A program made the position numbers and the translations under genes. Below the pieces are notes generated by a model. That model saw only the letters and a program-made list of their open reading frames with translations, was not told the origin of the DNA and searched no databases. From Myxococcales bacterium (lineage in GTDB: Bacteria; Myxococcota; Myxococcia; Myxococcales; 40CM-4-68-19): DNA of 33,112 nt. This document shows positions 1,270-3,225 of the stretch, piece by piece (position 1 is the stretch's first letter; each line of letters starts with the position of its first letter). Location of the stretch: assembly GCA_020201435.1 (NCBI GenBank), contig JAIVGS010000194.1:1-33112 (forward strand), given 5' to 3'.

Positions 1270-3225
1270 ATGTTGAGACTGATTCTCATTCTCACCGCGG
1301 CCGTGGCGCCGGCCGCGCGGACGGCGGCGGCCTCGCCGGCGGCCGGGCCGCAGCCGAAGGCGGAGGCATTGGAAGACCAGCCGCTGCGGCGGGTGGTGGC
1401 GCTGCTCGACTACGTGTCCGCCGATTACCCGCGCGCCGTCGGGCCGGGCGGCGAAGTGCTGTCGGCCGCCGAGCACCAGGAGCAGATCGGCTTCGTGCAG
1501 GACGCCGCCCGCGAGCTGCGCGCCGACGTGGAGGCCGAGGACATCGGCGTCAAGCTCGACGCGCTCGGCCGCGCCGTGGCCGCGAGGGCGTCTCCCGCCG
1601 AAGTCGCGTCCGAGGCGCGCGCGCTGCGCGACCAGATCGTGCAGCGGTTCCACGTGGTCCTCTTTCCGGTGCACGCTCCCGATCTCTCCCGCGGCGCGCA
1701 GGCGTACGCCCAGGCCTGCGCCGCGTGCCACGGAGTCGACGGCCGCCCGAACGCGTCGATCGGCCTGGAGACCAAGCCGCCCGATTTCAGCAAGCCCGAC
1801 GACGTCAAGGAGATGAGCCCGCAGCGCGTCTTCAGCGCGGTCACCTACGGCGTGCCGCGGACGCAGATGCCGGCGTTCGACGTCGGGCTCGACGACGCCG
1901 CGCGCTGGAACGTCGCCTTCTACCTGCTGACGCTCGCGCACCCCGAGGCGTCCGCGCACGGGCTCGACCTGGCCCGCGCGGCGCTGGTTCCCACCCGGTA
2001 CCGCGACCTCGCCTCGCTCTCCGACCAGGACCTGCGGGCGAGGCTCGCCACCGCCGGCCTTTCGCCGTCCGCCGTCGAAGAGGCGATCGCCGCGCTTCGC
2101 AGGGGTCCGTTCAGCGAACCCGCGGAGATGATCGAGGCCCAGGGCCTGGCCAGGGCCCGGCATGACGCGCAGAGAGCGGCGGCGCTGGCGCGCTCCGGCG
2201 ATCGGGACCACGCGCGCCGCACGCTGATCTCGGCCTACCTCGACCACTTCGAGCCCCACGAAGCCGTCCTCCGCGCGCGCGACGCGAATCTGGTGACCGA
2301 GATCGAGGGCGCGTTCCTCGCCCTGCGCTCGTCGATCGACGCCGGCCGCGATCCGGAGCCCGACGCGGTCCGGCTCGACGCGCTGCTGGAGATGGCCGAC
2401 GTCCGCGGCCCGGGCGGCGCGCTGGTCGCGTTCGTCGCCGCGCTCGCCATCGCGCTGCGCGAAGGAGTCGAAGCCGCCCTCCTCGTCGCCGCGATGCTCG
2501 CGCTGTTGCGCAAGGCCGGACGCGCCCGCGACGCCAACGCCGTCCACGTCGGCTGGCTCTCGGCGCTCGCCGCCGGCGCGATCACCTGGTGGGGCTCGGG
2601 CGTCCTCCTCTCGCGGCTCTCCGGCGCCCACCGCGAGCTGATCGAGGGCGTCCTCCAGCTCGTCCTCGCCGCGCTGATCCTCTACGCCAGCCACTGGCTC
2701 TTCGCCGCGATGAGCTCGCGCCGGCTCTTCTCCACCTTCTTTCAGCGCTCGATGGCCGGCGCGTCCGCCGCCGTCGTCCTCGGCACCACCTTCATCGCCG
2801 TGTACCGCGAGATGCTGGAGGTGGTGATGTTCTTCCGCAGCCTGGTCCTCGAGTCGCCGGGCGCGGGCGGAGCGGTCGCCGCCGGCGCGATCGCCGGCAT
2901 CGTCGCGCTGGTGGCCCTGGTCGCGCTCTTCCAGCGTCTGCAGAAGAAGCTCAAACCGCGGCCGCTGCTCGTTGCTTGTGGAACGATCCTGAGCGGCCTC
3001 GCGGTGCTCATGGTCGGCAATGGCATCCGATCGCTGCAGCTCCAGGGAGCGCTGCCGCTCACCGTCTGGGGCGCGTTCCAGCTGCCGGCGCTCGGCCTGT
3101 ACGCGACGCGCGAGGGCCTGCTCGCGCAGGGCCTGGTGATCCTCAGCCTCGCCGCGTCGGCGCTGTGGAGCTCGACCCACCACGGCGGCCCGGCGCCGAA
3201 AGACCGCGCGCAGGCCGCGGTCTAA
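1270..3225 (+). CDS. Cytochrome c-FTR1 fusion iron permease
   Basis: High-affinity iron permease of the FTR1/EfeU type with an extracytoplasmic cytochrome c domain at its N-terminus, 651 residues. A signal peptide (1-21, LRLILILTAAVAPAA) leads to a helical region (30-135). A class I cytochrome c domain follows, with heme site CAACH (150-154) and probable axial Met200 (TQMPAF). After a helical linker (230-380) comes the membrane permease with the two REXXE iron-binding motifs, REGVE (397-401) and REMLE (513-517), in separate helices. FTR1 proteins import Fe3+, and the heme domain probably passes electrons during iron oxidation or reduction at the outer face; that coupling is inferred. ATG 1270 is chosen because the signal peptide starts there (a TTG directly precedes it). 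A Fur-like box covers the first codons. The stop lies 5 bases from that of the convergent lipoprotein gene. Confidence 0.9.
   Translation: MLRLILILTAAVAPAARTAAASPAAGPQPKAEALEDQPLRRVVALLDYVSADYPRAVGPGGEVLSAAEHQEQIGFVQDAARELRADVEAEDIGVKLDALGRAVAARASPAEVASEARALRDQIVQRFHVVLFPVHAPDLSRGAQAYAQACAACHGVDGRPNASIGLETKPPDFSKPDDVKEMSPQRVFSAVTYGVPRTQMPAFDVGLDDAARWNVAFYLLTLAHPEASAHGLDLARAALVPTRYRDLASLSDQDLRARLATAGLSPSAVEEAIAALRRGPFSEPAEMIEAQGLARARHDAQRAAALARSGDRDHARRTLISAYLDHFEPHEAVLRARDANLVTEIEGAFLALRSSIDAGRDPEPDAVRLDALLEMADVRGPGGALVAFVAALAIALREGVEAALLVAAMLALLRKAGRARDANAVHVGWLSALAAGAITWWGSGVLLSRLSGAHRELIEGVLQLVLAALILYASHWLFAAMSSRRLFSTFFQRSMAGASAAVVLGTTFIAVYREMLEVVMFFRSLVLESPGAGGAVAAGAIAGIVALVALVALFQRLQKKLKPRPLLVACGTILSGLAVLMVGNGIRSLQLQGALPLTVWGAFQLPALGLYATREGLLAQGLVILSLAASALWSSTHHGGPAPKDRAQAAV
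1274..1294. promoter_or_regulatory. Putative Fur box
   Basis: TGAGACTGATTCTCA (1274-1288) is a 7-1-7 inverted repeat with one mismatch, and a second overlapping copy shifted by 6 bp ends at 1294. Read on the minus strand, 1293-1275 matches the classical 19-bp Fur consensus at 15 of 19 positions. It lies between the start of the VIT-type gene (1190) and the permease start (1270), and covers codons 2-9 of the permease. On the minus strand a GATAGT element (about 1254-1259) could be a -10 whose -35 falls in the box. An iron-dependent repressor acting on both iron genes is the simplest reading. The alternative is a chance match produced by Leu/Ile codons of the signal peptide. Confidence 0.65.

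Follow-up and report, generated by a model that had tools for sequence, protein, structure and literature searches.

A predicted Fur operator that appears to encode part of the signal peptide of a probably leaderless iron permease gene in a family of soil myxobacteria

The classical Fur box (GATAATGATAATCATTATC) can be read as overlapping 7-1-7 units, and in Desulfovibrio overlapping boxes offset by 6 bp have been described (PMC545781). Sites for Fur behind the transcription start are also on record: iron control of Shigella shuT requires a Fur site in its 5' UTR, and in-gene Fur sites were reported for gspC, garP, yahA, and fadD of E. coli (PMC5458455). Leaderless genes, which carry a TANNNT signature about 12 nt before the start codon, are common in some delta-proteobacteria and account on average for 15.8% of the genes in the genomes of this group having them (PMC3160421). 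The nreAXY genes of Mesorhizobium have a metal-responsive repressor, a compact promoter and a leaderless transcript with no Shine-Dalgarno (SD) sequence (PMC12724321). No paper combining a Fur box with a leaderless gene was found among the open-access papers searched.

The locus analyzed here, the start of a cytochrome c-FTR1 iron permease gene, resembles each of these systems in part. Its putative operator at 1274-1294 has the same half-sites and the same 6-bp offset as the classical Fur box, and the likeness to classical Fur systems extends to an iron-uptake target and an autoregulated fur gene; the site differs from the classical box by a GAGAAT/GATTCT hexamer variant and by its location inside a coding start. 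Like the shuT and E. coli sites (PMC5458455), it would lie downstream of the transcription start. However, those sites belong to a leader or to a more internal part of a gene, with no codon-level conservation described, whereas the FTR1 site occupies the first codons of a predicted leaderless gene and is codon-constrained. Like bacterial leaderless genes (PMC3160421), the FTR1 gene lacks an SD and has its -10 element right in front of the start codon, and it shares with nreAXY (PMC12724321) a putative metal-sensing repressor, a compact promoter and a leaderless transcript, the last by prediction. In nreAXY the operator lies between -35 and -10 and the repressor belongs to the CsoR/RcnR family, whereas in FTR1 the operator lies within codons and the regulator would be Fur.

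The Fur box, the promoter and the start codon of FTR1

The window, that is the whole stretch of 33,112 nucleotides, is contig C57 of a 4.76 Mb genome, for which the genome-wide figures come from pattern searches; the organisms compared with it are uncultured and represented by MAGs. The FTR1 gene (651 codons, + strand, 1270-3225, stop codon 3223-3225) encodes a protein with an FTR1 domain (PF03239, 47.3 bits, cut-off 25.3) and a cytochrome c domain (PF13442, 42.3 bits, cut-off 27), and scores 63.3 bits with the EfeU equivalog NF041756, below its cut-off of 255. A VIT-family transporter gene (Pfam VIT1) is encoded divergently on the - strand (450-1190, most likely with a GTG start at 1190-1188). 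Thus, Pfam bore out the gene identities proposed in an earlier note made from the sequence of this locus. A second, distant cytochrome c-FTR1-like gene of 35% identity is present in the same genome (G000:C193:346-1791).

The box is the 21-mer TGAGACTGATTCTCATTCTCA on the + strand; it begins with base 2 of codon 2 and ends with base 1 of codon 9 (ATG at 1270-1272). The two overlapping 7-1-7 units that the earlier note had placed on codons 2-9 (TGAGACTGATTCTCA and TGATTCTCATTCTCA) were located at 1274-1288 and 1280-1294, so that the site holds the minimum of two 7-1-7 (or three hexamer) units in register of a Fur operator. They are the sole sites in the window with three or fewer mismatches from TGATAATNATTATCA (two observed versus 0.01 expected), and zero shuffles reached two. 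The agreement of 15 of 19 bases with the classical consensus given in that note holds, by a hand count, for the consensus read on its complementary strand; on the usual strand it is 14 of 19 because the center base differs. Throughout the genome, the degenerate box TGAKAMTNAKTMTCA has one perfect match, which is the FTR1 site, and one further place with one mismatch (C192:15036), just behind a fur gene, while the reversed control pattern gave 0 matches. Weak genome matches with two to three mismatches deep in genes (C259, C164, C199, and others) looked like chance occurrences and were dismissed.

One sigma-70-like promoter was found, composed of a -35 element ATGACA (1233-1238, + strand), a 17-nt spacer and a -10 element TATCCT (1256-1261, + strand); shuffles yielded 0. 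Both elements are conserved in relatives, and the promoter as a whole through most of family f1, to which the window belongs. Since only 8 nt separate this conserved promoter from the ATG (6-8 nt from the start codon in relatives), leaving no room for an SD, the FTR1 mRNA is probably leaderless, as judged from the spacing and the absent SD. The first T of the -10 element precedes the start by 13-14 nt in most of these genes, compared with about 12 nt for TANNNT in known leaderless genes, and a leader of 0-3 nt is therefore possible; the -10 spacing and the TANNNT rule (PMC3160421) predict a transcription start at 1267-1270 on the + strand. A leaderless start would place the operator at about +4 to +27. 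The site is thus probably an ordinary operator directly behind the transcription start, which is coding because the leader is absent.

The earlier note had suggested repression of the importer by a block inside its coding start. A Fur-type operator is indeed present in the first codons, but the promoter, which predicts a leaderless mRNA, does not point to an unusual in-gene roadblock. It is very unlikely that a longer transcript starts further upstream and that Fur or another protein bound at the box halts its elongation as a roadblock: the shuT and E. coli sites (PMC5458455) would be precedents, but the sole promoter-like site, conserved across the family, ends directly in front of the ATG. 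There is hardly any probability that the repeat functions as a 5'-terminal RNA hairpin of the mRNA. A stem is predicted from the first 27 nt in G000 and G003 (z about -2 to -2.6), but none forms in G008, where the change is uncompensated, and the noncoding boxes before fur and bfd have the same sequence. An RNA element was rejected because of the non-folding of G008 and the lack of an Rfam match.

The position of the start codon was supported by the distance between the box and the beginning of the conserved domain ('..LLDYV'). This distance varies from 65 to 158 nt and equals 2 mod 3 in all 12 genes of the spacing set, which consists of the 11 FTR1 genes of family f1 and of G024 (family f9). 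In three genomes (G004, G005, and G006) a stop codon lies 13 nt upstream of the box, and in these three as well as in G011 no plausible later start was found before the conserved domain. Because of the constant frame, the upstream stops and the lack of later starts, the start codon was assigned to the box; it is the ATG at 1270 in the window, and G010 and G008 use a GTG instead. The box of G024 contains the ATG. Roughly the first 22 codons encode MLRLILILTAAVAPAARTAAA, which by eye has the build of a signal peptide. A true start further downstream, with the box in an untranslated leader or promoter and thus noncoding, would agree with the FTR1 genes of Myxococcaceae and of f5/f7 relatives, in which the box is upstream of the start codon. 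Nevertheless, this alternative is most improbable considering that the spacing changes by multiples of three only, that four genomes have no plausible later start and three of them carry the stop at -13, and that the residues encoded by the box form the beginning of the signal peptide.

Conservation of the box and constraint on its codons

The box was found at the same codons in 11/11 examined FTR1 genes of family f1, that is, at an orthologous place amid diverged sequence. In frame, it reads Leu-Arg-[Leu/Met]-Ile-Leu-Ile-Leu. This agrees with the earlier note, according to which Leu/Ile codons and operator share the same bases: the box encodes Arg followed by Ile-Leu-Ile-Leu. The codons under the box are TTG-(AGA/AAA)-NNG-ATT-CTC-NNT-NTC in all 11 genes, although in the gene bodies TTG makes up 6% of Leu codons, AGA 1% of Arg codons and ATT 5% of Ile codons. 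When synonymous sequences were drawn with the codon usage of the genes themselves, the observed box was matched in 0 or 1 of 100,000 draws for each of the 11 genes; with uniform codon usage it was matched in 0.1-0.3%. In an alignment of nine genes, all four invariant amino acid columns under the box (Leu2, Arg3, Ile5, and Leu6) had an identical codon, whereas among the invariant columns elsewhere in the gene (n = 170) 13.5% had an identical codon in 9/9 genes. The earlier note had asked whether relatives conserve the motif at this place and avoid silent changes; since the 11 genes keep rare codons that preserve the repeat, the codon comparison favors an operator.

In G012, a single genome from another family of the order, the box is read in a different frame, and its spacing to the -10 element is almost unchanged; the peptide of the box region is MIENDSQNHFRRLLALV (MIENDSQNHF...). 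This different frame at a nearly equal promoter distance indicates that the DNA rather than the peptide is conserved. G008 carries a weaker box (TGAAAACGATTCTCA).

In GC-rich genomes, early codons are often AT-rich. The likeness to a Fur box could accordingly be a by-product of a conserved MLR-ILIL signal peptide and of an AT-richness of the early codons that prevents folding of the mRNA start, all the more as the box encodes hydrophobic residues. This possibility has next to no probability, as synonymous draws almost never produced the box even with uniform codon use, the box of one relative lies in another frame and encodes an unrelated peptide, and the palindrome raises the folding of the mRNA start instead of lowering it. 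Taken together, our observations make it likely that a true Fur operator, the 21-bp element, has become part of the coding sequence of a leaderless gene.

The candidate regulator and the divergent VIT gene

The genome contains three genes with a FUR domain. The protein encoded on C192 (FUR domain, 128.9 bits) has its best scores with Fur models and Fur structures, the best PDB matches being Fur proteins, yet it remains below the NCBIfam equivalog cut-offs. A cognate Fur candidate is therefore encoded in the same genome as the FTR1 box. The fur gene on C192 is preceded by a box (TGAGAATCAATTTCA), and the next gene carries another one on its first codons. Within family f1, 2-8 box matches per genome were obtained, compared with almost none for the control, and the examined matches were located mainly at fur, at the gene behind fur, at bfd and at FTR1. 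Noncoding Fur boxes precede bfd, which encodes a bacterioferritin-associated ferredoxin (MILCIC...), at six loci (L069, L077, L080, L085, L090, and L093), and these boxes support the Fur identity of the motif. Hence, besides FTR1, the predicted regulon includes fur in the genome itself and in relatives, and bfd in relatives. The iron-specific identity of the C192 regulator is likely rather than certain because its scores remain below the equivalog cut-offs. It is improbable in a high degree that another paralogue of the Fur family, sensing a different metal or peroxide, binds the box. Three FUR-domain genes are present and none exceeded an NCBIfam equivalog cut-off where tested, but the C192 protein is the best one by Fur models and structures and has boxes at its own locus, no box was found within the loci of the other two paralogues, and the targets FTR1 and bfd are iron genes.

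The VIT gene is adjacent and divergent in 10/11 loci of family f1, about 84 bp from the box, and the earlier note had assumed that one site could control the importer and the VIT gene together. Such a double function, in which the operator would repress FTR1 and control, perhaps activate, VIT, would be in line with this arrangement but is unlikely. The box at the FTR1 start is retained in G011, G012, and G024, which lack VIT, and its distance is fixed relative to the FTR1 promoter and inconstant relative to the VIT start. Neither a second box nor a recognizable promoter was found at the VIT side, and the idea of joint control was consequently not upheld. A divergent VIT promoter with TTGTCA as the -35 element was discarded since the spacing is not kept.

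Moreover, a conserved element, CGACTTGCCACG, lies between the two genes near the VIT start (1217-1228, + strand). Eight of its bases (TTGCCACG) are invariant in 10/10 f1 loci, its distance to the FTR1 promoter is variable, and on the VIT strand it reads CGTGGCAAGTCG, often followed by TCGC. No known motif fitting this element was found. A sigma-54 reading of CGTGGCAAGTCGTCGC near VIT was rejected as the gap between GG and GC is 9 nt and not 10.

Coding Fur boxes in other genes and the proposed mechanism

According to the earlier note, Fur sites within a signal-peptide region are uncommon. This holds in part, but the arrangement recurs in other myxobacterial genes. In the gene behind fur, an extended Fur box lies inside the signal-peptide codons (LRMRIxIG..., MRMRIII...) at 8/8 loci (L001 1944-2696 in G000:C192, L073, L075, L076, L079, L081, L089, and L092); the gene has no Pfam or NCBIfam match. 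In the lipoprotein cytochrome gene of G011, the ATG overlaps the box and a -10-like element is positioned 7 nt upstream. The same overlap of box, ATG and signal peptide occurs in the genes for an exported protein of roughly 280-300 amino acids in three genomes of genus g18 of family f6 (L123, L124, and L125), again with a -10-like element 7 nt upstream, which is weak in G027. In the orthologues of these genes in genus g15 (L130, L131, and L132; 35-37% identity), the start codon follows the box at a distance of about 75 nt; the difference between the two genera looks like a second case of operator capture at a coding start. In FTR1 of Myxococcaceae the box is in the leader. On the FTR1 tree the coding arrangement is strongly clustered and needs at most three changes. 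In addition, a Myxococcaceae lipoprotein gene (L128 in G072:C161, LRMILKFTVTVATLLFCGC...), presumably of the imelysin/EfeO type by its look, has a Fur box on its first codons.

Because coding boxes exist beyond FTR1 and orthologues have the box in the leader, operators seem to have been captured by the coding sequence in several genes. We consider it somewhat more probable than its opposite that Fur operators of myxobacteria were repeatedly captured as the first codons of leaderless or nearly leaderless genes for exported iron proteins, giving operator-coded signal peptides. With similar, limited confidence we count as candidate cases FTR1, the gene behind fur in family f1, the g18 exported protein of about 300 amino acids and the G011 lipoprotein cytochrome. 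Capture may have been helped by the fact that the in-frame Fur box happens to spell a positive n-region (AGA = Arg) and then Ile/Leu.

From the position of the box we infer how Fur binding, repression, the mRNA 5' end and export could be connected. Fur-Fe(II) from C192 would bind as two overlapping dimers, covering the FTR1 transcript from about +4 to about +27, and would obstruct RNA polymerase at -10/+1 when iron is plentiful. Under iron starvation, Fur would leave and the leaderless FTR1 mRNA would be made. As this mRNA would have no leader, the operator would also be translated as codons 2-9, and these codons would supply the charged n-region and the hydrophobic h-region of the export signal peptide.

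With a putative Fur site inside the first codons of FTR1, it appears, with strong support from the comparisons above, that in this family of soil myxobacteria the same bases serve as iron off-switch and as code for an export signal. The locus would be a clear-cut example from nature of a short sequence constrained both as operator and as signal peptide, and the orthologous genes in which the same operator remains noncoding supply a matched comparison. It shows a route by which regulatory DNA becomes protein-coding once the 5' leader is lost. Operators of this kind can distort start-codon calls as well as codon-bias and dN/dS analyses at gene starts, and of the four target genes detected in family f1, two would escape a search for Fur sites restricted to noncoding DNA.
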